NCBI GenBank assembly: GCA_017549815.1
Contig: JAFYNH010000023.1
Location: 1 to 64,000, forward strand
Length of the DNA stretch: 64,000 nt
From: Selenomonadaceae bacterium
Lineage (GTDB): Bacteria; Bacillota; Negativicutes; Selenomonadales; Selenomonadaceae
Reading direction: 5' to 3'
Of the stretch, positions 17,626 to 60,353 are shown piece by piece (the first letter of the stretch is position 1; every line of letters begins with the position of its first letter). The position numbers were made by a program, and so were the translations under genes. Under the pieces are notes generated by a model. That model was not told the origin of the DNA. It saw nothing but the letters and a program-made list of their open reading frames with translations, and did not search any database.

Positions 17626-20412
17626 ATGAACGTAAAAGAATTCGTGAATCAATGGCGCGAAGTCAGCGGCGAACGTGCCAACTATCAAAAGTTTTGGTTG
17701 ACTCTTATTCGCGACGTGTTCAATATCGATAAGCCCGAAAATTTTATTCAGTTTGAAGTGCCCGTTAAGCTTAAGCATAAAAGTTTTATCGACGGCTACT
17801 TTCCCGACTCCAAAGTCATCATTGAACAGAAAAATTTCGGCGTCGACCTAGAAAAAGAAATTACCCAGTCCGACGGAACTAAATTAACGCCCTACGAACA
17901 GGCGCGGCGTTATATTGTCGGCTTGCCGCTGTCCATGCACCCGAAGAAAATCATCACCTGCAATTTTAGCGAGTTCCTTATTTATGACATGGAAACGCTG
18001 GAACCGCCCGTTAAAATTCTGCTTGAAGAATTGCCGACCAAATATCATCTGCTCGATTTTCTTATCAATCCTGCCGAAAATAAAATCCGCCTCGAAAAAG
18101 AGTTGTCGCTTGAGGCGGGTAAAATCGTAGCCAAAATTTATAATGAACTCCTTAAGACACTCGCGCCCGGCTCCGACGAAAAAAATCTTAATATCCTCTG
18201 CGTCCGAATCATTTTCTGCCTTTATGCCGAGAGCGTCGATATTTTCGGCAAGCATAAAATCTTCCGCGATTATCTTCAAGGCGAAAAAAATATCCGCCGC
18301 GCCCTCCGCGAATTGTTTGAGGTTTTGAATACGCCGATTGAAAAGCGCAGTCCTTATCTCGACGACGCACTTAAAAATTTTCCTTACGTCAACGGCGGCT
18401 TGTTCGCAGATGAAATCGATTTCCCGAACTTTACGCCCGAACTCCGCGAGCTGTTATTGGAGGAGGCAAGCAGTAATTTTAATTGGGAAGGAATCAGCCC
18501 GACTATTTTCGGCACGGTCTTTGAATCGACGTTGAACCCCGATAATCGACGCGCCGGAGGTATGCATTATACCGACGTTGAAAATATTCATAAGGTAATC
18601 GACCCGCTTTTTCTTAACGACCTGCGACAAGAATTCAACGCCATAAAAAATAAAAAACAGCTCCGCGATTTCCAAGACAAACTCGCCGCGATAAAAATCT
18701 TCGACCCTGCTTGCGGCAGCGGCAACTTTTTGACGGAAAGTTATTTGAGCTTGCGCCGTTTGGAGAATGAAGTTTTAAAAGAATTGCTGGGCAGTCAAAT
18801 TCAACTCGGCGAACTCGACGACCCGATTAAAGTTTCCATACAGAATTTTTACGGCATAGAGATAAACGATTTCGCGGTAACGGTCGCCAAAACTTCAATG
18901 TGGATTGCGGAACTCAAAATGAAAAAAGAGACTGCCGCCCTTGTTCATAAGGACTTGAAAAATTTCCCGCTCAAGGAGTTTAAAAACATTCACGAGGGCA
19001 ACGCTTTGCACGTCGACTGGAAGGAGCTTTTTTCAATTCCTAATTCCTCATTCCACATTCCTAATTACATAATAAGTAATCCGCCGTTTATCGGGGCGAG
19101 TATGATGACTGCCGCGCAAAAAGCCGACGCCGTTAAGATTTTCGGCAAAATTAAACTCTCGAACAGTATCGATTACGTCGGCGCATGGTATCATCTCGCC
19201 GCTAAATTCATGCAGGGCACCAAAATTAAAGCCGCGTTCGTCTCCACGAATTCTATAACTCAAGGCGAACAGGTTGCGCCGCTCTGGAAAAAAGTCCTCG
19301 ATGATTACGGTATGCAAATCATTTTCGCACATCAAACTTTTAAGTGGGACAGCGAAAGTACCGACAAAGCCGCCGTTCATTGCGTCGTTATCGGCATTGC
19401 CGACAAAAATTTGCCCGTTGATAAAAAAATTTTTAACGGCGAAAAAGTTTACCCTGCCAAAAATATCAATCCTTACCTTGTCGACGCCCCAACCGTTTTT
19501 ATCGAAAGCCGCGCTAAACATATTCAACCTTTTGTCCCGCGAATTTCTCATGGCAATAAACCAACTGACGGCGGAAATTTTATTTTCAGTGCTGACGAGG
19601 CAAATAAATTTATAAAAAAATATCCCGCGCAGAAACATTTGATTCACAGATATTTAGTTGCAAAAGATTTTCTTCACGGTGAACCGATTCGATATTGTCT
19701 TTGGCTTTTTAATGTGCCGCCTAATGAATATTCTGGCAATCGAGAAATCATGCGGCGACTTGAAGCGATAAGAGTTTTTCGTTTAGCAAGTTCATCATTG
19801 ACGACGCAAAAATCAGCCGAGACGCCCTATAAATTCTTTTCAACACCGCAAACAAATGAAAATTATCTTTGTATTCCGCAAGTAAGTTCAGAACGTCGAA
19901 AATATATTCCGATTGGTTTTATGCCTCCTGACATTATTGCAGGCGATAGAGTTTTAATTATTCCGTCCGCGCAGATTTATCATTTCGGAATTCTAACAAG
20001 CTCAATTCATATGGCATGGATGCGAGCGGTAGCAGGACGCTTAGAAATGCGATACAATTATTCGGGTAGCGTGGTTTATAATAATTTTATTTGGGCAGAG
20101 CCGACGCCCGCGCAAAAGGCTTTGATAGAAAAGTCCGCGAAGAATATTTTGGACGTTCGGGCTAAGTATCAGGGAAGTAGAGAAGTAGGGAAACAGGGAA
20201 ATAGCAATAAAAATTCTACTTCACTACTTCGCTCGTTCCCTAATTCCCTAGCAGATTTATATGACGAATTGACAATGCCCGCCGATTTACGGAAGGCTCA
20301 CCGAGCTAACGATAAAGCAATTGCCGCCGCCTATGGCTTTGAAAATATTTTGGACGACGAGCCAGCCATTGTCGCCGAGCTGATGAAGTTGTATGAGGCG
20401 TTGACAAGTTAG
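17626..20412 (+). CDS. Single-chain restriction-modification enzyme, MmeI-like (type IIL)
   Basis: The 928-residue protein combines an N-terminal nuclease-like region (DGYFPDSKVIIEQKNFGVD, a D...ExK pattern near 60), a helical spacer, a SAM-dependent N6-adenine methyltransferase core (FDPACGSGNFLTE near 365 and SNPPFIGAS near 485) and a C-terminal target-recognition part. Such enzymes methylate one strand and cut at a distance. Two heptamer-repeat insertions lie in frame: before the NPPF motif (19036-19078) and near the C-terminus (20167-20252). The last codons hold the -35 box of RNA F. GGGAGGAATTTTCT precedes the ATG. Confidence 0.88.
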   Translation: MNVKEFVNQWREVSGERANYQKFWLTLIRDVFNIDKPENFIQFEVPVKLKHKSFIDGYFPDSKVIIEQKNFGVDLEKEITQSDGTKLTPYEQARRYIVGLPLSMHPKKIITCNFSEFLIYDMETLEPPVKILLEELPTKYHLLDFLINPAENKIRLEKELSLEAGKIVAKIYNELLKTLAPGSDEKNLNILCVRIIFCLYAESVDIFGKHKIFRDYLQGEKNIRRALRELFEVLNTPIEKRSPYLDDALKNFPYVNGGLFADEIDFPNFTPELRELLLEEASSNFNWEGISPTIFGTVFESTLNPDNRRAGGMHYTDVENIHKVIDPLFLNDLRQEFNAIKNKKQLRDFQDKLAAIKIFDPACGSGNFLTESYLSLRRLENEVLKELLGSQIQLGELDDPIKVSIQNFYGIEINDFAVTVAKTSMWIAELKMKKETAALVHKDLKNFPLKEFKNIHEGNALHVDWKELFSIPNSSFHIPNYIISNPPFIGASMMTAAQKADAVKIFGKIKLSNSIDYVGAWYHLAAKFMQGTKIKAAFVSTNSITQGEQVAPLWKKVLDDYGMQIIFAHQTFKWDSESTDKAAVHCVVIGIADKNLPVDKKIFNGEKVYPAKNINPYLVDAPTVFIESRAKHIQPFVPRISHGNKPTDGGNFIFSADEANKFIKKYPAQKHLIHRYLVAKDFLHGEPIRYCLWLFNVPPNEYSGNREIMRRLEAIRVFRLASSSLTTQKSAETPYKFFSTPQTNENYLCIPQVSSERRKYIPIGFMPPDIIAGDRVLIIPSAQIYHFGILTSSIHMAWMRAVAGRLEMRYNYSGSVVYNNFIWAEPTPAQKALIEKSAKNILDVRAKYQGSREVGKQGNSNKNSTSLLRSFPNSLADLYDELTMPADLRKAHRANDKAIAAAYGFENILDDEPAIVAELMKLYEALTS
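19036..19078. repeat. Heptamer repeat inside the restriction-modification gene
   Basis: ATTCCTAATTCCTCATTCC and the following bases encode SIPNSSFHIPNYI in frame, immediately before the catalytic NPPF motif. Confidence 0.65.
20167..20252. repeat. Second heptamer repeat hairpin inside the restriction-modification gene
   Basis: GGGAAGTAGAGAAGTAGGG and complementary CTACTTCACTACTTCG units lie in frame and encode the low-complexity GSREVGKQGNSNKNSTSLL. Confidence 0.65.
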
Positions 20413-38051: not shown

Positions 38052-38143
38052 CGAAAAGCCCCGCCGATTAGACGAGACTTTTTTAATTTCGATATATAGC
38101 GCGTCCGGCGTGACTCGAACACGCGCCCCACGGCTTAGAAGGC
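38052..38143 (-). repeat. attL: duplicated 3' end of tRNA-Arg and terminator
   Basis: The segment matches 51896-51984. The tRNA part covers anticodon to 3' end (GCGCGTCCGGCGTGACTCGA...CGGCTTAGAAGGC) but lacks the 5' half and the encoded CCA, so it is not a functional tRNA. Confidence 0.85.
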
Positions 38144-38927: not shown

Positions 38928-40229
38928 GTGCAGAAAATAACAATCCATAACTTCGGACCGATAAAAGAATGCGAGATGAACTTAGCTCAATTTATCGTTT
39001 TGACGGGCGCACAAGCCGCAGGTAAGAGCACAATAGCGAAAGCCATTTATTATTTTTATCTGGTAAAAGAACTTTGTTTTGATTTTATTATCGGAAGCAA
39101 AGTTAAGGATATCGGCAAGTCGAAAAGTGATATTCTTGGTGAATTTTTACTCCATATATTTTACGAACTCTTCAGCGATACGCTTTCCAAATCAGTTGGT
39201 TGCTCATTGGAGTATGTTTACACCGAAAATACGAAGATTCAACTCTATGCTGAAGAAAATGATTCTGCTAGCTTTAATCTTACCATTAACTTTAGTGATA
39301 ATATAGTTGAATTGGCAAAACGTTATGATGAACGCGATTTATCCTTTTGGGCTGTCGATAAGAACAGTCAACAGTTGAATCGAGAATTGGAAAATATTTT
39401 CGACGTGCATTACAAGCCGCTGTATATTCCTGCCGGCAGGAGTGTCGTTACAATGATGACAGATTTTATGGGCGAACTTCTTTTGTCGAGTGGCGGCACC
39501 AGATCTCGCAGTGCCATGCAAAATCTTGATTATGCTACTCAAAAGTATGTGAGAGAAGTTCTTTTGCTCAGAAAATTTTTCTCGGAAGGAACAATGAAAC
39601 ATATTGAGCGTGCTCGCCAAGTGCGCAATTCAAACGCATGGTTATTTGAAAAATTTTTGTTACTGTCTATGAAGATTATCAAAGGTGAATATTTCTACAG
39701 AGAAGGCGCGGAATTTCTTCGTGTAAAAAAATTTGACGGTAAGACCGCTGATGTTTGGATAAACTTTGTCTCATCGGGTCAGCAGGAAATTTTATGGGTG
39801 TGTAACATAATGTTTTATCATCTCTTTCACGGCGACCGCGTGTTTATCATTTTGGAGGAGCCGGAAGCTCACTTGTATCCCGATTCTCAAAAATATATCA
39901 GTGAATTGATTGGTTTATTCGTTCACGTTGGCAATCGAGCAATCATAACGACGCACAGTCCCTACATATTGGGTGAGTTCAATAATTTGATTTACGCCAA
40001 CGAGATACAAGGCGTTGATGAGCAACGGAACGAAATCGTGGACGAAGAAAAAATTTTGCCCTATGATGATTCGCGAGCATTTTATGTCGCGGACGGTTTT
40101 GTTAAAGACGCAATGGAAGATCATTTGATTATCAATTCTCTTATTGATGGTGCCTCCGATGAAATTAACGCAGAAAACGACAGGCTTATCGAGCTGAAGT
40201 GGGCAACGGAGGGGCAAAATGAAAATTAA
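38928..40229 (+). CDS. AAA family ATPase (OLD/AAA15-like)
   Basis: The 433-residue protein starts at GTG and has ITIHNFGPIKECEM and Walker A TGAQAAGKSTIAK near 32, with a C-terminal signature SSGQQEILW, Walker B FIILEEPEAHLYPDS and TTHSPYIL. This is the layout of ABC-type ATPases that work with nucleases or effector partners in defence systems. The next gene overlaps it by 11 bases and encodes a possible partner. The substrate is unknown. Confidence 0.82.
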   Translation: MQKITIHNFGPIKECEMNLAQFIVLTGAQAAGKSTIAKAIYYFYLVKELCFDFIIGSKVKDIGKSKSDILGEFLLHIFYELFSDTLSKSVGCSLEYVYTENTKIQLYAEENDSASFNLTINFSDNIVELAKRYDERDLSFWAVDKNSQQLNRELENIFDVHYKPLYIPAGRSVVTMMTDFMGELLLSSGGTRSRSAMQNLDYATQKYVREVLLLRKFFSEGTMKHIERARQVRNSNAWLFEKFLLLSMKIIKGEYFYREGAEFLRVKKFDGKTADVWINFVSSGQQEILWVCNIMFYHLFHGDRVFIILEEPEAHLYPDSQKYISELIGLFVHVGNRAIITTHSPYILGEFNNLIYANEIQGVDEQRNEIVDEEKILPYDDSRAFYVADGFVKDAMEDHLIINSLIDGASDEINAENDRLIELKWATEGQNEN

Positions 40230-40545
40230 CCTTTCCGACTACGAAAATCTTTGCAAAGACAAACGTCAATCAATTATTGTATCGCAAGACCGCAAAAGCG
40301 ATTGTCAACATAGGGCGCAGAACGTTGTAAAGGAAAATAATCTTCGCTCTGTCGTTCGTCGGTATAAAATTGACGGAAATATAATCACTTTAGGAAACAA
40401 ATATGACTATCTTGTTTTGAATGACGACCTGAAAACTGCGTATCTGATTGAATTGAAAGGCAGTGAAATTCCTCGTGCCATAAAGCAGCTTGATGATACG
40501 TTCAGTGCAATATACGGGAAAATGCACACATACCGTCCGAGATAG
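40219..40545 (+). CDS. Small protein with D...ExK pattern, possible nuclease partner, perhaps frameshifted
   Basis: The 108-residue protein has NKYDYLVLNDDLKTAYLIELKGSEI, split here as YDYLV then AYLIELKG, a pattern like PD-(D/E)xK folds, followed by AIKQLDDTF. It stops at HTYRPR. A second frame continues the sequence (RIVQLTVGRKN if one base were added at about 40541), so the end may be a frameshift. It overlaps the ATPase gene and is probably co-translated. An antiviral role is inference. Confidence 0.6.
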   Translation: MKINLSDYENLCKDKRQSIIVSQDRKSDCQHRAQNVVKENNLRSVVRRYKIDGNIITLGNKYDYLVLNDDLKTAYLIELKGSEIPRAIKQLDDTFSAIYGKMHTYRPR

Positions 40546-40700: not shown

Positions 40701-41879
40701 TTATTTGAAGAGTTCGCGCAGAGCGTCAACGGCTTGTCTTTGCATGTCAGGCAGGACGTGGCTGTAAGTGTCCATCGTAACTTTGATTGAACTGTGTCCG
40801 AGACGTTCCTGAACAATTTTGGGATTGACACCTTGTTGAAGAAGTAGCGTCGCGTGAGTGTGTCGCAAACCGTGAAACGTGAAGTCCGAGTTGATGTTGC
40901 ATTTCTTCAGCAACGGCTTGAAATATCGCCGTGAAAAATTCGTCGGGCTAATCGGCTCACCAAACGGGCTGGTAAAGATTAATCCGTTTCTCGCAAATTT
41001 ATCGCCCAATTCGTCGGCGTAATTTTTTTGCCATTCCCGATACTCTTTTAGAGATTGAACATCTTCCAGCATGAGCAAGACACGTCGCCGACTATTTTTG
41101 GTTTTTGGCTCCTGAAAAACTACGCCGCGTCCTACAACGTGGGCAAGTGAACGCCTTATGAATACACACGAGTTTTTAAAGTCAACGTCTTCCCACTTTA
41201 GCCCGAATACTTCGCCTTGTCTCAAACCTGTTTTGACCGTAAACGATAAGATTTCCGGCATCATGTTTCTCATAAACTCATTGTTGATTTGTCTTGCCCC
41301 TTCGATTAAAGTTGTAACCTCATCTCGCGTCAACACAACAATTTCTTTGCGCGTAAGTTTTGGGGATTTTGTTAAGCGCACCACATTTCGCAAGACCAAT
41401 CCTTCACGAACGGCATCGTCCACGCACATAGAGAAATATCTTCTTGCCGCTCGTACTGTGGAAGGTGATAGGGCATTGCCGTCGGCGCGTCCGTTTACCA
41501 GTAAAGAATTGAAATGTTTCTGCAGGCTCGACGCATCTAACGCCGCCAGTTTAAGATTCCCGAACTTTGGCACGATGTAATTTTTCAAACTGCTCCAGTA
41601 TTTTTCAAAAGTTCGCGGTCTGATTCGAGGCTTAACGTAGTTTTCCATCCATTCGTCAATCCAATCGGCAATCGTCATATCAGCTTTTAAAAGGATACTG
41701 CCTTGTTGATTTGCCATAAGAAAAGCCTTACCCTTTTCCATAGCCTCGTGTTTGGTTTTTGCGGCAAATTTTTTTCGTTTCGCTGAGCCGTTAGAATCCT
41801 TGTAGCTAACCTGATAAATCCAAAGTCCGCGATTTTTGTCTTGGTAGATGACGCCCTCTCCGGCGTTTCGTCTTCCCAT
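40701..41879 (-). CDS. Tyrosine site-specific integrase
   Basis: The 392-residue protein has an N-terminal arm-binding domain (GEGVIYQDKNRGLWIYQVSY), a core-binding SAM-like domain (DWIDEWMENYVKPRI) and a catalytic domain with GLRQGEVFGLKW (Arg), HGLRHTHATLLLQQG (HxxR) and MDTYSHV (Tyr). It integrates the element into tRNA-Arg. ATG start. The excisionase-like gene lies upstream on the same strand. Confidence 0.95.
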   Translation of the reverse strand: MGRRNAGEGVIYQDKNRGLWIYQVSYKDSNGSAKRKKFAAKTKHEAMEKGKAFLMANQQGSILLKADMTIADWIDEWMENYVKPRIRPRTFEKYWSSLKNYIVPKFGNLKLAALDASSLQKHFNSLLVNGRADGNALSPSTVRAARRYFSMCVDDAVREGLVLRNVVRLTKSPKLTRKEIVVLTRDEVTTLIEGARQINNEFMRNMMPEILSFTVKTGLRQGEVFGLKWEDVDFKNSCVFIRRSLAHVVGRGVVFQEPKTKNSRRRVLLMLEDVQSLKEYREWQKNYADELGDKFARNGLIFTSPFGEPISPTNFSRRYFKPLLKKCNINSDFTFHGLRHTHATLLLQQGVNPKIVQERLGHSSIKVTMDTYSHVLPDMQRQAVDALRELFK

Positions 41880-42822: not shown

Positions 42823-44916
42823 TCACTCCTCCTGCAAAAATTTTTCGATTGCTTTTTCTAGGGCATCTTTAGAGAGGACAAGCATTTCGACCAAATGCCC
42901 ATTAAGTTTCACACGCTTTAGGTATCGCTTGCGGGTGCCGCCGTTGCCGTCCTTGTTTTCGTAACCTTTCGATACGCCGTGATTCAGGAGCTCTTTAAAA
43001 ATCGTCGTCGAATCAGAGACCAATTCCCGTCCCGAATCCGTCAATAAATGCCGAGCGATCGATATGACTTTGTCGGGGGAAAGAACATACTCAGCGTCGC
43101 CCTTGTCGATTCGTTGAAATCCTGCGTATCGTCCGCCGTTTTGCTCAAATTCGTCCTTGTTGACAGCAATTAACGTCGTGCCCGTCGCTATCGCCTGTTG
43201 CAATGTCACGAGAAATTGTTGCCAAGGTTCAGCCTCAGTTGCCGCCGATTGGTTGCGCAACATCAAGTCGACGATGACGCGGTGCCAACAGGAAAGTTTG
43301 TCTTGAACTTGCTGCGAAGTAAGATTTTCAGATTGACGCCCCCAATCAGTTATCAAGGTCGCTACTGCGCAGAGGACGCGGTAGATTTGCTGATGTCGCT
43401 TGAATTTCAACGTTAGTGGTGGCGGTTGAAAAGTTAGCAAGAATTTGACAAGCTGTTCGTAGTTCGATTCAAGATATTCAATCCATGCGGCGAAAATTTC
43501 TTGAACTATCGTCGGTCTGTCTTCAAGTCGTGCGCAGATTTTGTCTTGCTGGAACATGCTCAAGTAGACGGTGTTAATCGAGTCGCTCTCAAGAGGAACT
43601 GAGACATAGCGTAACGTGCTGGACTGTTGGGATTCTAGATCGTGTTCGGCAGTGACAATGCAACCGCCTTGAACTTTGGTGCGCATGATTTCTTTGAAGT
43701 CCTTGCCGGCTGACTTAGCTCGCCCGATGCCTTCGCCGAAAGCCCGCAGGATGTCTTCAAATTTCGACATATTGGAAGATTTTTTCTTGAAGATGTCATC
43801 TACAACCATTGTTTGATCTATGCATTCCTCGCGGTAAAGTTCAAGAGCACGGCTGGTTGATTCAAAGCGGAGCATTGATCCCTCATTGAACGGTTCGGCA
43901 AACGTTTCGCAAATCGTCGTCTTCAAACTGCCCGTCTTGCCTATTAGCAACAACAAGAACTGAACTTTAAGACCCGCGTCGATGAACAATCTGCACGCGA
44001 AGCTGAGGTGCAAATACAGCCAAAACGGCAAACTAACTCTCAAGCTCGCCACGTCGTCGAATGTCCCGTCGGCGTTGAAAATTTTTCTGCCGATTTCCAG
44101 AATTTGCAAGTCGTTTCGCCAAGCAACCGCCATTCGCTCCGCTGGGATTTTCGGAATTGAAATGCCGCATTTACAATCGGCGCGGCTGTCGGATAAGTAA
44201 ACCATCTTGCCGCCGACAAGCTCCCAACCGTGATAGTTGAAAAATTCCTCAACGCCGTGACTTTGCCGGAATTCGCGATAGACGAGCGCACCATACTCTC
44301 GGAGATAATCTTTGGCGGAGTGACGGCTTTCGGGGCAGATATAACATTCCTTGAACTGCCGCTGAATTTCGTCGACTATTCTGTCATAGTCCTCCTCTGG
44401 CAAGCTCGGCAAATTTTTATCGTCGAATTCACCTGCGCGGTGTGTAAGAGCCGAACTTATGACGTTGTAAACGACTTCACGCTGAACGGTGCCGTCGCGA
44501 TTTTTTAACGTTCGCAGTGCAACGATCTCGAAGCTGAAGTTGCACAGGTGCATAGGATCGTCGGTCAACTTGTTTTTGGGGCGCAGATAAACACCGTCCG
44601 GTTCGATTATGAATTTTCTGTTGATCTCGTTTCCGCCTACCGTTAAAGTAATTTTTCTTGCGTTGGCATACGGCGAAGTGGAATTTGTCGCATTTGCTGA
44701 AGCCAACCGCACGCCACTTTGCTCTTGATACTTTTCCGCGCTGACATAAGGGTTGCCGTTTTCTTTTGGCTCGAAGTCTGCCGTCGAAAAAGGAATCTCC
44801 ATGGGAGCGACTTCGACGACTTGTTTCACGATTTTCGCCTGTCGGTAAGGATTAGGCGCACCTTTGTTAGGCGGTTGCCATGTCGTGTTTTGATTAACGA
44901 ACGGATTTTCGTCCAT
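42823..44916 (-). CDS. Replication primase/helicase-like protein (DUF927-like)
   Basis: The 697-residue protein has an N-terminal region without clear homology, a middle part like DUF927 and a helicase-type P-loop in LLLIGKTGSLKTTICETFAE near 330, MVVDDIFKKKSS (Walker B-like) and a C-terminal winged-helix-like tail. It likely replicates the element. GGAGGATTCG precedes the ATG. Confidence 0.8.
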   Translation of the reverse strand: MDENPFVNQNTTWQPPNKGAPNPYRQAKIVKQVVEVAPMEIPFSTADFEPKENGNPYVSAEKYQEQSGVRLASANATNSTSPYANARKITLTVGGNEINRKFIIEPDGVYLRPKNKLTDDPMHLCNFSFEIVALRTLKNRDGTVQREVVYNVISSALTHRAGEFDDKNLPSLPEEDYDRIVDEIQRQFKECYICPESRHSAKDYLREYGALVYREFRQSHGVEEFFNYHGWELVGGKMVYLSDSRADCKCGISIPKIPAERMAVAWRNDLQILEIGRKIFNADGTFDDVASLRVSLPFWLYLHLSFACRLFIDAGLKVQFLLLLIGKTGSLKTTICETFAEPFNEGSMLRFESTSRALELYREECIDQTMVVDDIFKKKSSNMSKFEDILRAFGEGIGRAKSAGKDFKEIMRTKVQGGCIVTAEHDLESQQSSTLRYVSVPLESDSINTVYLSMFQQDKICARLEDRPTIVQEIFAAWIEYLESNYEQLVKFLLTFQPPPLTLKFKRHQQIYRVLCAVATLITDWGRQSENLTSQQVQDKLSCWHRVIVDLMLRNQSAATEAEPWQQFLVTLQQAIATGTTLIAVNKDEFEQNGGRYAGFQRIDKGDAEYVLSPDKVISIARHLLTDSGRELVSDSTTIFKELLNHGVSKGYENKDGNGGTRKRYLKRVKLNGHLVEMLVLSKDALEKAIEKFLQEE

Positions 44917-45056
44917 AACGAATCCTCCTTTTGAAAGTACCTCTTAAATTTTCAAAGACCGTTGTTCTGTGAAGATCTGCTTTTTGCTACGGCTCGAAGA
45001 ATACCACAAAGGAGATACTTTCTACCATTTCCCAGACTTTCTCGATTTTGTGTACT

Positions 45057-45092
45057 AAAAAAGACTGCCCCAAGCAGAGCAGTCAGAAAAAA
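45057..45092 (-). terminator. Terminator after the 559-residue protein gene
   Basis: GACTGCTC and GGGCAGTC arms with a six-base loop, followed by TTTTTTA on the minus strand. Confidence 0.85.
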
Positions 45093-45098
45093 TTTTAT

Positions 45099-46778
45099 TC
45101 AAGTTTGCAATGCTTTGTCTATGATCTCTTGTCGCTGTGTTAAGGGAAAAATCTTTTCAATCAAGTTTTCAAGTGGAACTGTGTAGCCCGATTCTGTCAG
45201 CAACGGAATCGTTTCCTGCCAATATCTTAATAAAGCTGACTTCATCTTTTCACGCAGGATTTGAATTTTAATCGTCCGATGATTTGTCAGGATATACATC
45301 TGCTCGGTCAACCAACTGCAAGCCAGAAAATATTCCTCGTCCGATAATGGCGAAGCTATCTTTTGATTCTCGAATCTTGCGCGAAGTTGTTTCACGAGAG
45401 CCTTAATTTTCAAGTCACGTCTTTTCTTGTCTTCTTCGTAAATACTGTTGTAGCCGCTGTGCAGAGGTATATTTATGCCATTATCCGACAAATGTTCGTA
45501 TAGATAAACAATCGCGACGGCTTCCAGTCCGCTGAGATCAAAAAATTCATCTCGATTGATTCCCAAATTATAAACCAGACCGATAATTGCGTAGTCATCC
45601 TTGTGACGCTCAATTCTGACAGAAAATTTCCTAAGTTCTGTGCCATTAGTTATATCCGAGTGAACAATCTTTGCCAAATCTTTTTTATATTTCCCGGCAA
45701 AGTTGCAGAGATTTTCTAACGAAATCGACTCGATTTTGTTAGACAGCAAAAATTTCTCCGCTTTACTGTAGAAATCTTCTCCGGCTTCTATGACAAAAAT
45801 TTCTGAATAGAGCTCGCCGTATTCTTCATCAATAATATCGGTCATCAAAAAATGTTCGTATGCATAACATTGAATGGTTTTGACACCGTCAGCTTTACTT
45901 ACAGTTGAAAATTTTACTTCGCGAAGATTACTTATTACACTTCGATAAATGCTTTCGCAGACAAATCTTTTCACGCGGCAAGTCGGTTGTTTCAACTGTT
46001 TCAAAATATAGTCAACGATTCCTTCGCTGAAAGACTTTATAAAGCTTCGGACAGAATTATTATATCTCTCCAAATCTATTATCGTCCGAAAATCTACGCG
46101 ATAATTTGAATTGATATTCCTGACGAGGATTCGCTCTTTTATAAAATTCAGTGCCTTGCTGTAAGAATTTGGAATCAACGAATTTTGTTTCAAGAAGGAC
46201 ATGCGCAGAAGGTACCCTAAATCTACATTACATTCACGAATACAGTCATGTAAAATTTTCAGCAAGCGTAAGGTTTCGTATTTTTCGGCTTGAGATTCTG
46301 ATTTATCGTTATATTTTATTCCAAAAAATTTTTGAAGATAATTTTGGTTAAGCTTCCAAAGTTCAATACGTTTGCTGTCTCTATCAATGAGTTTGGTATT
46401 TTTCCCCATAATCATCGCCGATAAATCGGCAATAGAAAATTTTTCGTCAGGATAGTACGCACACGAGGTGAAATAACCGTACCTTTCGCCTGTCGGCATT
46501 TCATCTTCAGACCACCAACAAGTTACTTCTAAATACAGTGTTGCTATTTCGTCCAAGAAATCCGTAGGAATATTTTTTGTTGCTTTACCGTAACGAAATT
46601 CGCTGAGCTCAAAAATCTTATGACACGTTTCAATACAGTGACGGAATAAATCAAGCTGATTAAAATTTTTCAATGTCAAATCTGTCTCAACGTCGTCATA
46701 TATATCTTGATAAGGGTCATCTTGCATTATCTCTAATATGTCTTTGAGCTTCGATAAATCAAAATTCTTTTCGTTCAT
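45099..46778 (-). CDS. Hypothetical 559-residue protein of the unknown operon
   Basis: The protein is not recognised. It is charged and helical, without membrane segments, and has no P-loop. Features are a Trp/Cys-rich stretch (EVTCWWSEDEMPTGERYGYF) near 90 and a KRRDLKIKALVKQLRARFE region near 470. ATG at 46778 follows GGGAGCGACTCTT; an in-frame ATG ten codons upstream lacks a site. It is the last gene of the run of coupled genes that starts at 50392 and is followed by a terminator. Confidence 0.8.
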   Translation of the reverse strand: MNEKNFDLSKLKDILEIMQDDPYQDIYDDVETDLTLKNFNQLDLFRHCIETCHKIFELSEFRYGKATKNIPTDFLDEIATLYLEVTCWWSEDEMPTGERYGYFTSCAYYPDEKFSIADLSAMIMGKNTKLIDRDSKRIELWKLNQNYLQKFFGIKYNDKSESQAEKYETLRLLKILHDCIRECNVDLGYLLRMSFLKQNSLIPNSYSKALNFIKERILVRNINSNYRVDFRTIIDLERYNNSVRSFIKSFSEGIVDYILKQLKQPTCRVKRFVCESIYRSVISNLREVKFSTVSKADGVKTIQCYAYEHFLMTDIIDEEYGELYSEIFVIEAGEDFYSKAEKFLLSNKIESISLENLCNFAGKYKKDLAKIVHSDITNGTELRKFSVRIERHKDDYAIIGLVYNLGINRDEFFDLSGLEAVAIVYLYEHLSDNGINIPLHSGYNSIYEEDKKRRDLKIKALVKQLRARFENQKIASPLSDEEYFLACSWLTEQMYILTNHRTIKIQILREKMKSALLRYWQETIPLLTESGYTVPLENLIEKIFPLTQRQEIIDKALQT

Positions 46779-46853
46779 TAAGAGTCGCTCCCTTCGTTGA
46801 TGGGTCAAATTATATCTTCGTGCTTGTTACGTTGTAAAGCTGTTTCGCCGGTT

Positions 46854-47096
46854 TCACCAATTTACCTCAATGTTGGAATTATCGAACAGAGCTTTGCACT
46901 TCGCCCAATGCGCCTCAAGCCATTTGAGTTCGTAGCGTTTTTTGTAGAGGAGCTGAACATTTTTATTTTTGTCTTCGTACAGGAAGCGAAACAAGTCGGG
47001 GTTACCGTTCAAAACGTCCTCGACTAACTGACGGCGACATTCTCTTGTTATCTCAATAAATTTTACGAGTGCGAAAATTTCCCTTTGGCTGTTCAT
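46854..47096 (-). CDS. Hypothetical protein, 80 residues
   Basis: The protein is helical and charged (FIEITRECRRQLVEDVLNG, LYKKRYELKWLEAHWAKC). Its ATG overlaps the stop of the upstream gene (ATGA), which shows tight translational coupling. No family is recognised. Confidence 0.75.
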   Translation of the reverse strand: MNSQREIFALVKFIEITRECRRQLVEDVLNGNPDLFRFLYEDKNKNVQLLYKKRYELKWLEAHWAKCKALFDNSNIEVNW

Positions 47097-47485
47097 CGGA
47101 CGCCGCCTCCGAAAGTTTTTTCACGAAGAGCCGCGTTGAACTCCTCAACCTTTTTCGTCGTGAGTATGTCAATAAAATTCCCGCTCATCTTGAAACTGTT
47201 ATCCATGTGGCGTTCTAAATGCTTAAGCCACTCGCGACGCACGTCATCGGCTATCGGCTCCGCCGCTAACTTTCGCTGTATCGCGGGTAAATCGTTCCCG
47301 TAAAAATTTTTAACTTCCTGCGTGTGCGTCGTGTGCAAGTCGTTGATAAATTCAATCTCGTGCCGATAACTTTTCACGAGCCGCATGTAATGTTCTTCGT
47401 AATCCATTAACATTTCCGCCGCCGTGTCGGAGTTCCGAGAAGACGACCTGTGAAATTTGCCGAAAGCACTGCCGCTGTTATTCAT
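47093..47485 (-). CDS. Hypothetical protein, 130 residues
   Basis: After a Ser-rich start (NNSGSAFGKFHRSSSRNSD) the protein is helical (EMLMDYEEHYMRLVKSYRHE, EWLKHLERHMDNSFKMS). It overlaps the upstream gene by eight bases and the downstream gene by four. No family is recognised. Confidence 0.75.
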   Translation of the reverse strand: MNNSGSAFGKFHRSSSRNSDTAAEMLMDYEEHYMRLVKSYRHEIEFINDLHTTHTQEVKNFYGNDLPAIQRKLAAEPIADDVRREWLKHLERHMDNSFKMSGNFIDILTTKKVEEFNAALREKTFGGGVR

Positions 47486-47687
47486 TGGTTTCCTCCGCTA
47501 TCAAGTATATGAGTTTCGTTTTCTTACGAGCCGTTAAACGTTCGATAATGGATTCGGGCGTTCCGTCACCAACTGACACCACGCGATAATTGCGATTCAA
47601 TCCATCGCGGAAAATTGCGTTGTCGTAATTACGCTCAAGGTCGCTGACCAAATCATTCATGTTAGCGAACACTTTGGACGACTTCAC
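47478..47687 (-). CDS. Hypothetical protein, 69 residues
   Basis: The GTG start at 47687 overlaps the TGA stop of the tail-anchored protein gene (GTGA), so this is the preferred start; a longer upstream reading would overlap that gene almost fully and is low-complexity Arg/Ser. The protein has VSDLERNYDNAIFRDGLNRN, RVVSVGDGTPESIIERL and a hydrophobic TKLIYLIAEE end, like a small alpha/beta domain. Confidence 0.65.
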   Translation of the reverse strand: MKSSKVFANMNDLVSDLERNYDNAIFRDGLNRNYRVVSVGDGTPESIIERLTARKKTKLIYLIAEETNE

Positions 47688-48490
47688 TGCGTAAGGAAAA
47701 TTATTATTGCTATCACGGCGACTATCGCGACGATTGGAATAATCAGACTCTTGCCGCCCGAAGCTGAAGGAAGTTTCGGGCTTTGTGATCGTTGGGCTTG
47801 AAAACGTTCCGTAGCTTGAGCGTGGTTGCTCGAAGGTGTAGGTTGAGTTTTTTTTTGAGCCTCTTGGATACGATTGATAACGCTCTGCGCGGCGGTGATG
47901 ACTTCGTATTTGCCGTCCTCGAAAATTTTCACGGCGTCGACGTTTGAGCAAAAGTCTTTATGTGCGGCAATGCATTGCTCGAACAGTTCAATATCATCGC
48001 GTTCATTGGACGGATAAAACTTTTTGTCAAGAGTTTTTTTGGCTACAGACTTAACGCCGCAACTTTCATAGGGCACAATCACGGTATCAGAGGGATTATT
48101 ATTCCAAACCTTCGCGACAGTTTGCTTGAACATCTGCCAAAGCTTGGATTCGGACACGTCGGGGACGCCGCTCCCTTTGAAAGCATAGCCGAGAAAAATT
48201 TTAACTTCCCTGCCGCGTTCGTCATGGAAATATTTTTCGGCTTCCTCGTATTCGGCGGCGGACAAATATTTTTCTGCAAACGACTTGAAGTTGCAGGAAA
48301 TACCTGCGATACAAATCTTGCCGTCACTGGCGACAACGCGGCGCATGCCGTTCAAAATGTCAATATCGCGTGTCGAAGGCAAAATTTTGTTCATTGCCCA
48401 TTGAACGTTCAAGTCTTTTGGACGAGCCGCAAAGTTCTGATTAAAGTCGCAGTAAAAAGTTCTGCTGTGAATAAGCGGAGCAATTTCCAT
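47684..48490 (-). CDS. Tail-anchored membrane protein of unknown function
   Basis: The 268-residue protein has a soluble N-terminal part (KICIAGISCNFKSFAEKYLS, FKGSGVPDVSESKLWQMFK), a Gln/Ser/Pro-rich linker from about 213 and one C-terminal membrane helix (SLIIPIVAIVAVIAIIIFL) ending three residues later. It should sit in the cytoplasmic membrane with its body in the cytoplasm. It lies between the 88-residue gene and the 69-residue gene in the coupled operon. Confidence 0.8.
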   Translation of the reverse strand: MEIAPLIHSRTFYCDFNQNFAARPKDLNVQWAMNKILPSTRDIDILNGMRRVVASDGKICIAGISCNFKSFAEKYLSAAEYEEAEKYFHDERGREVKIFLGYAFKGSGVPDVSESKLWQMFKQTVAKVWNNNPSDTVIVPYESCGVKSVAKKTLDKKFYPSNERDDIELFEQCIAAHKDFCSNVDAVKIFEDGKYEVITAAQSVINRIQEAQKKTQPTPSSNHAQATERFQAQRSQSPKLPSASGGKSLIIPIVAIVAVIAIIIFLTQ

Positions 48491-48507: not shown

Positions 48508-48774
48508 TTAAAAATTATAATCCGCGATGCTCTGAAGTTCAGCCCACATCTGATTGATACCGCGCTTGTCTTGCCACGCACCTTTGAAATAAATCATATC
48601 GATTGCCGCCAGTTCGCGATTCATACGTTTAAGGCTTTTCTTGAAGTAGTTAGCGACTTGACGATTATTTTCGATTTGCTTTCTTTCTTCATAAATATAA
48701 TTGTTCAGTTCGTCAATATTGTCGCCGAACAACCAGCGTGACAAAAAGAAACGATCCTCTTCCGCGCGCTTCAT
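48508..48774 (-). CDS. Hypothetical helical protein, 88 residues
   Basis: The protein has a likely coiled coil (NNYIYEERKQIENNRQVANY, FKKSLKRMNRELAAIDMIYF). It lies 21 bases after the GTPase gene and 17 before the tail-anchored protein gene. No family is recognised. Confidence 0.75.
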   Translation of the reverse strand: MKRAEEDRFFLSRWLFGDNIDELNNYIYEERKQIENNRQVANYFKKSLKRMNRELAAIDMIYFKGAWQDKRGINQMWAELQSIADYNF

Positions 48775-48795: not shown

Positions 48796-50076
48796 CTAGT
48801 GTTGCTTTTCGATAAGCCATTTTCCGTATTTGAGTTGGTCAATCAGCGCGAAGTTGATTCCCATGAGAATCGGAAGGGGAACGTTCAGCGGATCCAACTC
48901 GCCCTGACAGTCGTCGTCTTCGAGGGTATCGCCGAGCGAAACGGGAATTATCGCGACAAAAGTATCATTGCCGCTGAACAGTCCTTCAAAAGCCTCTTCG
49001 ACGATTTCGCGTACTTCGTCGGCGTCAGTGTCGTCTGCGCACATGTCATATTTGGTAACGAGCATTCCAATCGGCGGCAAGCTCTTGTTTTCCTTCTTGA
49101 GTTTATCCTTAAGTTCGATGAGGTAATCTTTGACATGTTGAGCGCAACGTTCTTTTACTTTCCTGATTTTTTTATGCGTGCTACTGCCTGTTAAGTTCGC
49201 GCCGTCAATGCAGATAAAGATCATTTCCGATTCCATTATTGACTTTGCGACATCGTTATATTGTTCGCTGGTGATGTCTCTGTTCCTTTTGTCCAAAAAA
49301 CCGCCGTGATAATCTACCCATTGGAAGGGATGGATCGTCTCGTAATTGTACTGCAGATTGAAGTCGAATTTCTGTACTTGGTCGCTGGGATCCGGAAATC
49401 TGCTTTTCCCGCGTGACTTGTCTTTGAGCCTGTCATAGCGTAACGTAAGATTTTTATCGGCGTCGGGTTCAGTGGCAACGACCGTGTAACCTGCAACGCT
49501 CATGCCCATTTCGTAGTACATTCCGAGCAGATAACACGTCTTGCCCGAACCGGTTTCGCCTAAGATTGTAAACTTTCTTCCTGCCATATTATCATTTTCC
49601 TTTGAATTATTTTTTCTGGTATTGCTAACGCTTTGAGGTTTATCCTCCTTTGAATTATTTGCGCGAGTGTTGCTGACGTTTTGAGGTTGTAGCGTGTAGT
49701 TTTGTCCGCCGAGTTGAAAAGTGATGTCGCCGAAGTCCGCATCGTTCTTGACGGTAAACATGACGATTTTACTAACGTTGAAGTAAGCCAGAATTTGATA
49801 GGCGTTTATCATTTGATTCTCTCTGACAGATTCTTCATAGAAACTTTTATCGCCGATTTGAATGAAAAGATTGATTCCGTTATCCGAGACGATTGAAATT
49901 GCGTTGCGAAAGACTTTGAGCACGCGCCCATGGAAAGGCAAAATTATTCTGCCGCTCGTATTTTTGACTGCGGCACCGCGTCCCATTGAGCCGTTTACAA
50001 AAGGAGTTTCGCCGCAATCTTTCAGCGAAAAGAATTGTCCTTTTTCAACGGGTGAATTCAAGATGATGTCACGCAT
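48796..50076 (-). CDS. Fusion of an EIIA(Glc)-like domain without catalytic histidines and a P-loop GTPase-like domain
   Basis: Residues 1-110 resemble PTS EIIA of the glucose family (NSPVEKGQFFSLKD, GRGAAVKN, SGRIILPFHGRVLKVF, SDNGINLFIQIG). The phospho-histidine position in the V-x-H-x-G motif is Gln73 and the second histidine (N-H-A) is also absent. A linker with two SNTR-x-NNSKE repeats follows. Residues 165-426 have P-loop GETGSGKT at 173-180, WVDYHGGF (switch-like) and LVTKYDMC (NKxD-like). ATG at 50076 follows GGAGG. Regulation by a dead sensor domain is inference. Confidence 0.75.
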   Translation of the reverse strand: MRDIILNSPVEKGQFFSLKDCGETPFVNGSMGRGAAVKNTSGRIILPFHGRVLKVFRNAISIVSDNGINLFIQIGDKSFYEESVRENQMINAYQILAYFNVSKIVMFTVKNDADFGDITFQLGGQNYTLQPQNVSNTRANNSKEDKPQSVSNTRKNNSKENDNMAGRKFTILGETGSGKTCYLLGMYYEMGMSVAGYTVVATEPDADKNLTLRYDRLKDKSRGKSRFPDPSDQVQKFDFNLQYNYETIHPFQWVDYHGGFLDKRNRDITSEQYNDVAKSIMESEMIFICIDGANLTGSSTHKKIRKVKERCAQHVKDYLIELKDKLKKENKSLPPIGMLVTKYDMCADDTDADEVREIVEEAFEGLFSGNDTFVAIIPVSLGDTLEDDDCQGELDPLNVPLPILMGINFALIDQLKYGKWLIEKQH

Positions 50077-50090
50077 GAAATTTTCCTCCG

Positions 50091-50225
50091 TCACTTGAGC
50101 CGCTTTTTAATCTCGTGCTTGATGGTTTGCTTGCCGATTTCGCGAACAGGCTTTGAAGTCACAAGCTCTGCAGTTTTCTTCGCGCCGAGAGTTTTAACTA
50201 CGGCTTTAAAAAGCGTTGTCAACAT
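50091..50225 (-). CDS. Hypothetical basic peptide, 44 residues
   Basis: The peptide is Lys-rich (MLTTLFKAVVKTLGAKKTAE, then HEIKKRLK at the end) and ends 14 bases before the GTPase start. The ribosome site (GTGGGT) is weak. It fits the coupled gene order of the operon. Confidence 0.55.
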   Translation of the reverse strand: MLTTLFKAVVKTLGAKKTAELVTSKPVREIGKQTIKHEIKKRLK

Positions 50226-50239
50226 GTAAATACCCACAA

Positions 50240-50477: not shown

Positions 50478-50759
50478 TTAACCTCCGTTGCTTAATGAAA
50501 TGACTCGTTCAAGACACTGCAAATATTTCGGACAAGACTCCTCCGCAAAGAGTATGCATGGCGGCACTTGTAAGGCTTGCGCTATTTCTATCACCGACGC
50601 GATGCCTTTATTCGGACGGAAATTTTCAATTTGACTGATATACGCCGCGCTAACATTGGATTTCTCTGCCAATTCTTTTTGAGATAAGTTATTCAGTACT
50701 CTAAAATTGTAAAGGTTGTTGGCTAAGATTTTACAAGAACTTTCTTCATTAACTGACAT
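50478..50759 (-). CDS. XRE-family transcription regulator 1
   Basis: The 93-residue protein has an HTH_3 domain (LSQKELAEKSNVSAAYISQI) followed by GIASVIEIAQALQVPPCILF. It probably controls element genes. It lies next to a second XRE gene in the control region. Confidence 0.9.
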   Translation of the reverse strand: MSVNEESSCKILANNLYNFRVLNNLSQKELAEKSNVSAAYISQIENFRPNKGIASVIEIAQALQVPPCILFAEESCPKYLQCLERVISLSNGG

Positions 50760-50822
50760 TTTCTTTACCCTATCAACAAAAAAAATTTTGCGAGGGTTAA
50801 ACTTCTTGCATAGTAAAATCTT

Positions 50823-51125
50823 TTAATCTTTTGAGAGTGGCTTCCACCACATGCTTTTTTCCATATCGCTGAATGTCACGAGCATCGTTATATCTATCTG
50901 CAAACCATCTGCTATATCAAAGAGTAACGACACTGAAACATTATCATTATATCTGCCGCGCTCTATCTTGCTCAAACTGCTGACGCTCATATTTGCTCGC
51001 TTTGCGAGTTCTTTTTGCGACATGTCCCTCAACGTTCGATAATATGCAATCTTAGCTCCTATCTGTCTGAACAAAATTTCTTTGCGAGGATCTACCTGTT
51101 TTTCAACATCATTTTTGTAATTCAT
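50823..51125 (-). CDS. XRE-family transcription regulator 2
   Basis: The 100-residue protein has HTH residues MSQKELAKRANMSVSSLSKI and SVSLLFDIADGLQIDITMLV. GGAGGAAAACGA precedes the ATG. Together with the divergent HTH gene at 51460 it forms the likely repressor switch of the element. Confidence 0.9.
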   Translation of the reverse strand: MNYKNDVEKQVDPRKEILFRQIGAKIAYYRTLRDMSQKELAKRANMSVSSLSKIERGRYNDNVSVSLLFDIADGLQIDITMLVTFSDMEKSMWWKPLSKD

Positions 51126-51459: not shown

Positions 51460-51654
51460 ATGGAAAATGCGAGTACAACCTTGATAACGGTAGAAGAGCT
51501 TTGTGAGGAATTGATGATTGGAAAAAACACGGCATACAAACTTTTGACATCTGGAGAGATTAAAGGATTTCGTATCGGGCGCATTTGGAAAATTCCACGC
51601 GAAAGTTTGAATCGTTACCTCATCGAGCAAACCAGTGTTTTAAATAGAAAATGA
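51460..51654 (+). CDS. Excisionase-family HTH protein
   Basis: The 64-residue protein has ITVEELCEELMIGKNTAYKL followed by GEIKGFRIGRIWKIPRE, a helix-turn-helix of the excisionase/DNA-binding family. GGGAGGGAAAACTC precedes the ATG. It is the last gene before attR and is divergent from the rest of the element. Confidence 0.85.
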   Translation: MENASTTLITVEELCEELMIGKNTAYKLLTSGEIKGFRIGRIWKIPRESLNRYLIEQTSVLNRK

Positions 51655-51895: not shown

Positions 51896-52014
<119 letters not shown>

Positions 52015-59990: not shown

Positions 59991-60353
59991 ATGAAACACG
60001 CAAATAAATCTTTAAAAAATAGAAATCATAAAGTAAACCATAAAGTTATACCGCTTGTCGAAATTACTGAGGCAGTGGAACCCGTTAAAGAAGTTTCGTT
60101 CATCATGGTTGCAAAAGGCGTTATCGGATTCAGAGAGAGTGCGCATATCGTCAAAATCGCTGATGAAACGAATTGCACAATCAGCATTGCGTCGGGTAAA
60201 AATTTCGGCACGAACAAAAGTATCTTGTCGCTGGTTAATCTTATGCTCACGTCGGGCAAAAGCTTGGTTCTTAACATCAAGGGCGAGCGCAACGAGGAGG
60301 CTTTCCGCGCAGTTTCAAAAATTATCGCGGGCGAGACCGACGGCAACAGCTAA
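59991..60353 (+). CDS. HPr-like protein lacking the phospho-histidine
   Basis: The 120-residue protein has a basic 35-residue N-terminal extension and an HPr domain. The active-site segment, normally GLHARPA, reads VIGFRESAHIV, so the histidine is replaced by Arg. The regulatory serine region is partly kept (NKSILSLVNLMLTSG). It therefore cannot carry phosphate from enzyme I and may act as a regulator, like Crh. AGGAGGTTCCCAAC precedes the ATG. No PTS genes are adjacent. Confidence 0.75.
   Translation: MKHANKSLKNRNHKVNHKVIPLVEITEAVEPVKEVSFIMVAKGVIGFRESAHIVKIADETNCTISIASGKNFGTNKSILSLVNLMLTSGKSLVLNIKGERNEEAFRAVSKIIAGETDGNS

Follow-up and report, generated by a model that had tools for sequence, protein, structure and literature searches.

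Why would a GTPase gene on a mobile element begin with a sugar phosphotransferase (PTS) domain deprived of its active-site histidines? The question is raised by a gene in the window, i.e., the 64,000-nucleotide stretch of a Selenomonadaceae bacterium contig analysed here. The original prediction proposed that the gene fuses an EIIA(Glc)-like domain lacking both histidines to a GTPase-like domain, and that the product senses the host PTS state or acts as a decoy for an infecting virus.

Domain organization of the fusion protein

The minus-strand open reading frame 48796-50094 encodes 432 aa from a GTG start or 426 aa from an ATG at position 50076. The protein comprises an EIIA(Glc) domain (approximately residues 4-130), a duplicated linker and a GTPase domain (approximately residues 165-426):

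49687-50076 (minus): EIIA(Glc)-like domain, residues 1-130, with Q73 and N58 replacing the active-site histidines (Pfam, alignment, Foldseek)
49585-49688 (minus): linker with a 48-bp tandem duplication (PQNVSNTRANNSKED / KPQSVSNTRKNNSKEN; direct repeat D2), predicted to be disordered (pLDDT <50, residues 134-164)
48799-49584 (minus): Ras/Rag/Arf-like GTPase domain related to DO-GTPase2, with G1 GETGSGKT, DYHG and TKYD motifs (PF19993, E = 6.5e-5, below cut-off; motifs; VIA)

Residues 7-104 match PF00358 (PTS_EIIA_1; E = 1.8e-11, 44.3 bits), exceeding the curated cut-off of 27.2, and phmmer with the window protein retrieved EIIA(Glc) structures (E about 5e-6). When the AlphaFold model of the fusion protein (mean pLDDT 83.5) was submitted to Foldseek, EIIA crystal structures ranked first (3our, E = 1.7e-6, target TM about 0.66; then 1f3g and 1gpr). 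Judging from these matches and the predicted fold, the N-terminal domain is a true member of the EIIA(Glc) family with the EIIA beta-sandwich fold, as originally proposed.

The P-loop GxxxxGKT, DxxG and TKxD motifs are invariant in an alignment of 33 GTPase relatives. The window GTPase scores 23.1 bits against PF19993, whose cut-off is 27, whereas relatives exceed that cut-off (27.3-36; 28.3 and 54). VIA aligned the predicted GTPase domain with LokiRagO (Z 16.3, 175 residues, rmsd 2.8), RagD (15.8) and RagC (15.6), as well as with Arf and other Ras-type GTPases. The invariant motifs and the modelled fold thus identify the second domain as a Ras/Rag/Arf-type TRAFAC GTPase, and the structural comparison that had been proposed for both domains agrees with the GTPase-like C-terminus first suspected.

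Loss of the active-site histidines within one genus

We aligned the window EIIA with 16 permease EIIA domains (IIABC type, same family) and with those of six other fusions. E. coli H75 is replaced by N58 and H90 by Q73 in the window domain, which has also lost about 16 further residues around the active site, while all 16 permease domains (14 of them from the same genus) carry histidine in both columns. The absence of both histidines, with Q73 in the column of the phosphorylated one, is thereby confirmed; having neither the phosphorylatable (H90) nor the auxiliary histidine (H75), the domain does not qualify as a working phosphocarrier.

The other fusions fall on both sides. Both histidines are likewise gone from the fusions of genomes G017, G051 and G054, but those of G050, G056 and G040, from the same genus as the window, have kept both. 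The G040 gene is frameshifted, so that the unbroken full-length fusions are those of G050 and G056, whose Pfam EIIA E-values (6.7e-47 and 4.2e-35, respectively) are far stronger than that of the window. The G050 EIIA is 61-70% identical to the EIIA domains of the IIABC permeases of the genus, where EIIA occupies the N-terminus, and 56% and 61% identical to those of permeases in two other genera; its alignment with permease EIIA runs into the start of the linker leading to IIB. Since histidines persist in three fusions, including both unbroken ones, the ancestral domain was probably phosphorylatable and the His-less state derived. Based on these sequence comparisons, the domain was probably captured from the host PTS, with phosphorylation lost later in one lineage. 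The EIIA tree was poorly supported and captures could not be counted from it; there may consequently have been more than one capture or more than one histidine loss.

The existence of these intact homologues speaks against an EIIA that is dead by design, and also bears on the decoy proposed for an infecting virus. Homologues retaining the histidines had been named at the outset as an outcome that would refute the proposal, and the fusions of G050, G056 and G040 are such homologues. A dead EIIA could imitate the PTS protein of the host that a phage or rival element targets, and trigger the GTPase module when bound. Inactive enzyme homologues have indeed been proposed as effectors or decoys in related GTPase and MoxR systems (PMC7159879), and such a trap would suit a mobile element that bears a second, ATPase/nuclease-like module at its opposite end. 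Yet inactivity is not a constant feature of the fusion, the GTPase occurs in no phage record or viral contig searched, and neither evidence for a PTS-targeting phage factor nor other positive evidence emerged, which makes a decoy very improbable.

The fusion gene belongs to a conserved operon

The fusion gene is followed by partner genes and preceded by a small open reading frame and regulators:

50478-51125 (minus): a pair of Cro/C1-type HTH regulators preceding the operon (PF01381, E = 8e-12 and 6e-13)
50091-50237 (minus): small conserved open reading frame, 48 aa, directly upstream of the fusion gene (tblastn match to a 96-aa open reading frame of G050)
47684-48490 (minus): 268-aa partner with a C-terminal transmembrane tail and an N-terminal, weakly longin/roadblock-like predicted fold (AF2 pLDDT 87; VIA Z 3-5), beside the GTPase in most relatives
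47478-47672 (minus): small conserved open reading frame, about 64 aa, matching 57-68 aa open reading frames in G050, G017, G033 and G051
47093-47485 (minus): helical protein of 130 aa, the third of the conserved operon genes, 64-86% identical in most relatives of the genus and 41% in G003

In relatives, the gene order is fixed: GTPase, 268-aa-type partner, then helical proteins of 130, 154 and 222 aa. This order was found in Selenomonadaceae, an uncultured Clostridia bacterium, Lachnoanaerobaculum and Ruminococcus, and the profile of the 130-aa protein matches Clostridia and Lachnoanaerobaculum. Cyanobacteria, Clostridia SKW257 and a Thiotrichaceae MAG encode one to three GTPases with the partner. 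The GTPase, its partner and the three helical proteins therefore form an unnamed conserved module across Firmicutes, the core pair of which extends to cyanobacteria. A mechanically called 157-aa open reading frame was rejected as a whole gene, since it overlaps the partner gene and is conserved only in its last 64 residues.

The VIA matches of the 268-aa partner are all weak (Z 3-5) and mostly longin/roadblock regulators of GTPases, i.e., VAMP7, Sec22b, GATOR1 chains, Nprl, MglB and Ragulator. Foldseek against the PDB returned nothing significant for this protein (E above 0.3), the longin likeness coming from VIA alone, and neither the partner nor its relatives matched a GAP1 model among those searched in Pfam (E up to 1). 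The operon itself contains no recognisable effector or nuclease, and no defence family known to PADLOC fits it; the PADLOC identities mad8, PtuA and HerA were rejected as weak P-loop matches.

The N-terminus of the GTPase varies among relatives: it bears EIIA in this genus, regions with no Pfam match in two Ruminococcus genomes, and nothing extra elsewhere. Most likely, it is an exchangeable sensor position, occupied here by a PTS domain. One Ruminococcus GTPase (L058 651-2531) has about 310 extra N-terminal residues with two similar stretches, KGDHVTF and AGDTVKF, possibly another sensor domain.

In G050, cyanobacteria, Clostridia SKW257 and Thiotrichaceae, GTPase paralogues lie in tandem. 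The G050 pair (L031 2049-2993) carries EIIA on the first copy only, and an identical-looking second copy is found in G033. In Clostridia bacterium SKW257 (L057 589-4670), two GGDEF-HD proteins are encoded upstream of the GTPase pair.

Comparison with known GTPase and EIIA systems

DO-GTPase systems comprise tandem GTPase paralogues whose Walker B contains a conserved glutamate (Kaur et al. 2020, PMC7159879). Like DO-GTPase/GAP1 systems (PF19993, PF19975), the operon combines a TRAFAC-type GTPase, often as two paralogues, with a partner gene immediately downstream, whose product is comparable to GAP1 in its place and probable role; membrane anchoring of components, Hsp70 genes in the vicinity of some relatives and a sporadic distribution complete the likeness. 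However, the window GTPase remains below the Pfam cut-off, its partner matches no GAP1 model, FNIII, GASH, SLATT and peptidase domains were not recognised, and an N-terminal EIIA stands in place of zinc ribbons. Furthermore, the Walker-B region reads W-x-D-Y-[PHR]-G, with no glutamate within this DYxGG-type motif. Based on the missing glutamate and the lack of a GAP1 match, we class the operon as related to DO-GTPase/GAP1 rather than as a member.

A Ras/Rag/Arf fold GTPase paired with a weakly longin/roadblock-like partner, as judged from predicted structures, also recalls MglA/MglB, the actinobacterial conservons and Rag/GATOR1-Ragulator. Unlike in these systems, additional helical genes and a fused sensor domain are found here, and no sequence relation to them was detected.

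The EIIA domain shares fold and family with EIIA(Glc) (Crr) and the EIIAs of IIABC permeases, and the histidines are retained in G050, G056 and G040. In LacS-type sugar symporters, a regulatory EIIA is fused to another protein, as it is here. Here, the domain is joined to a GTPase and not to a transporter, and the window lineage has lost both histidines together with nearby loops.

The operon is cargo of an integrative element

The operon lies within a 13.8-kb element integrated in a tRNA-Arg gene, delimited and marked by the following features:

38094-38143 (no strand): attL-like copy of the tRNA-Arg 3' end (50-bp direct repeat D1, 48/50 identical to 51935-51984)
40701-41879 (minus): tyrosine integrase (PF00589, 3.5e-31)
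51460-51654 (plus): excisionase-like HTH_17 protein (PF12728, 1.7e-13; PHROG excisionase matches)
51935-52014 (minus): attR and tRNA-Arg(TCT), the integration target (ARAGORN tRNA 51938-52014; repeat D1)

By its att repeats, integrase and excisionase, this is a tRNA-targeting integrative element, and the mobile-element location assumed at the outset proved correct. A tRNA-Arg(TCT) also lies near the copies of G017, G051 and G040 and near the EIIA-less copy of G063. The att core is present in G054, where no tRNA was called, and excisionase and HTH genes are present in G056.

The attL end (38928-40545, plus) encodes an AAA_15/AriA-like ATPase (PADLOC, 94 bits) followed by a 108-aa protein in which a PD-(D/E)xK-like motif was noticed by eye; the two, which are also present in G051, might form a two-gene defence module.

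Could the module serve the element itself, signalling host nutrition through the PTS state so that excision, replication or transfer happens at the right moment, instead of acting in defence? The operon often adjoins tRNA-Arg and the HTH and excisionase genes of the element, and in several genomes it is followed by DUF932, exonuclease and other core-like element genes. Against this, the EIIA-less operon is found outside such elements in G003, G032 and Lachnoanaerobaculum, and unrelated cyanobacterial plasmids carry the GTPase and its partner. We consequently find such element control quite unlikely.

Damage and selection in the His-less lineage

Several lesions are apparent in the window copy:

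48796-48798 (minus): in-frame TAG that cuts the conserved C-terminal coiled coil off the GTPase (translation past the stop; fused in relatives L031, L032 and L034)
48508-48774 (minus): 88-aa open reading frame that stands apart here but in relatives is the C-terminal coiled coil of the GTPase itself (97% identity to G017 GTPase residues 303-390)
46854-47096 (minus): truncated fourth gene, 80 of 154 aa, of which only residues 1-78 match (tblastn with the 154-aa protein of G050)

The 88-aa open reading frame was rejected as an independent gene, since it forms the GTPase C-terminus in relatives. A tblastn search with the 222-aa protein of G050 found no fifth gene in the window.

The region 42823-46808 (minus) encodes a 697-aa P-loop protein, weakly VapE-like, and a 569-aa protein with no family matches, at the position taken in relatives by the last genes of the operon and other element genes.

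One explanation is that the operon is decaying cargo, a non-functional remnant in which histidine loss marks early decay and not adaptation. Besides the lesions above, this would account for the state of the other His-less copies: the G051 fusion is a pseudogene, the G054 EIIA is interrupted and the halves of the G017 fusion lie on separate contigs, perhaps because the assembly broke at the repetitive linker. Both unbroken fusions, moreover, bear the histidines. With most His-less copies damaged or split, function in situ is doubtful. Nevertheless, between the window and G017 the His-less EIIA has a dN of 0.106 and a dS of 0.445, and this ratio of about 0.24, similar to that of the intact EIIA pair G056-G040 (0.21), indicates purifying selection during their divergence; the GTPase of the same two genomes gives 0.14. 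The Q/N state, being common to three genomes, predates their divergence, and the GTPase motifs are all intact. Decay as the full explanation thus seems somewhat unlikely to us, and the window copy may be decaying although its lineage was under selection.

A possible PTS-gated switch

The explanation that we favour, if only tentatively, is a membrane-associated GTPase switch related to DO-GTPase conflict systems, carried by tRNA-Arg elements and equipped with a captured PTS sensor. The fusion gene would encode the switch GTPase of a membrane module that also comprises the tail-anchored partner, of predicted longin/roadblock-like fold, and the three helical proteins; integrative elements targeting tRNA-Arg would carry this module among rumen Selenomonadaceae. 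Within the genus studied here, the GTPase would have gained its EIIA(Glc) from a host IIABC permease. In His-bearing copies, phosphorylation by HPr~P could report sugar uptake and energy state, and would set GTPase activity or partner binding; the GTPase in turn may act at the membrane by way of that longin-like partner together with the helical proteins. That the host genome encodes HPr and two EIIA-bearing PTS permeases counts in favour of a PTS sensor plugged into a GTPase switch. The sensing of host PTS state suggested originally is therefore plausible for the sisters with intact histidines, but the window copy, from which both are gone, cannot sense it by way of phosphorylation. With the phosphorylation site lost, EIIA could serve there only as a phosphorylation-independent docking or regulatory domain, i.e., in a locked state.

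A more specific version, which we consider unlikely, is a nutrient-sensing switch borne by mobile elements, in which EIIA(Glc), through its phosphorylation, would signal sugar uptake to a Rag-like GTPase and its longin-type membrane regulator to gate a conflict response, some lineages having locked the sensor through loss of both histidines. If true, bacteria would have an equivalent of Rag/GATOR nutrient signalling, one that probably arose by convergence.

Distribution and novelty of the fusion

The GTPase profile matched 15 of 380 genomes of the class, 14 of them in this genus, and among 398 genomes of the phylum matched that of the window alone. EIIA-linked copies are confined to this genus in both genome samples. 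Phage and plasmid collections contained no fusion, phages yielding ordinary PTS EIIA matches only; viral contigs, searched by protein and by GTPase alignment, held no relative, and cyanobacterial plasmids carry GTPase-only relatives devoid of EIIA. A combined term search of the literature did not find the EIIA-GTPase fusion. Within the genomes and literature covered, the statement that no such fusion was known holds outside the genus, with sister fusions inside it, and a PTS phosphocarrier domain joined to a GTPase switch appears not to be described in the literature searched. Natural His-bearing and His-less versions within one genus make sugar control of a GTPase conflict or mobile-element module directly testable.

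Two observations concern the surroundings of the element. A large methyltransferase-like open reading frame (17626-20412, plus), resembling by eye a type IIG restriction enzyme, has counterparts adjoining the element in G040 (L042 5162-7874). Some 8 kb beyond the right end of the element, an apparently chromosomal gene (59991-60353, plus) encodes an HPr-like protein (PF00381, 33 bits). As in Crh, the H15 equivalent is missing (R48 in GFRESAH) and KSI is retained as the motif around S46; this is another dead-histidine PTS protein.
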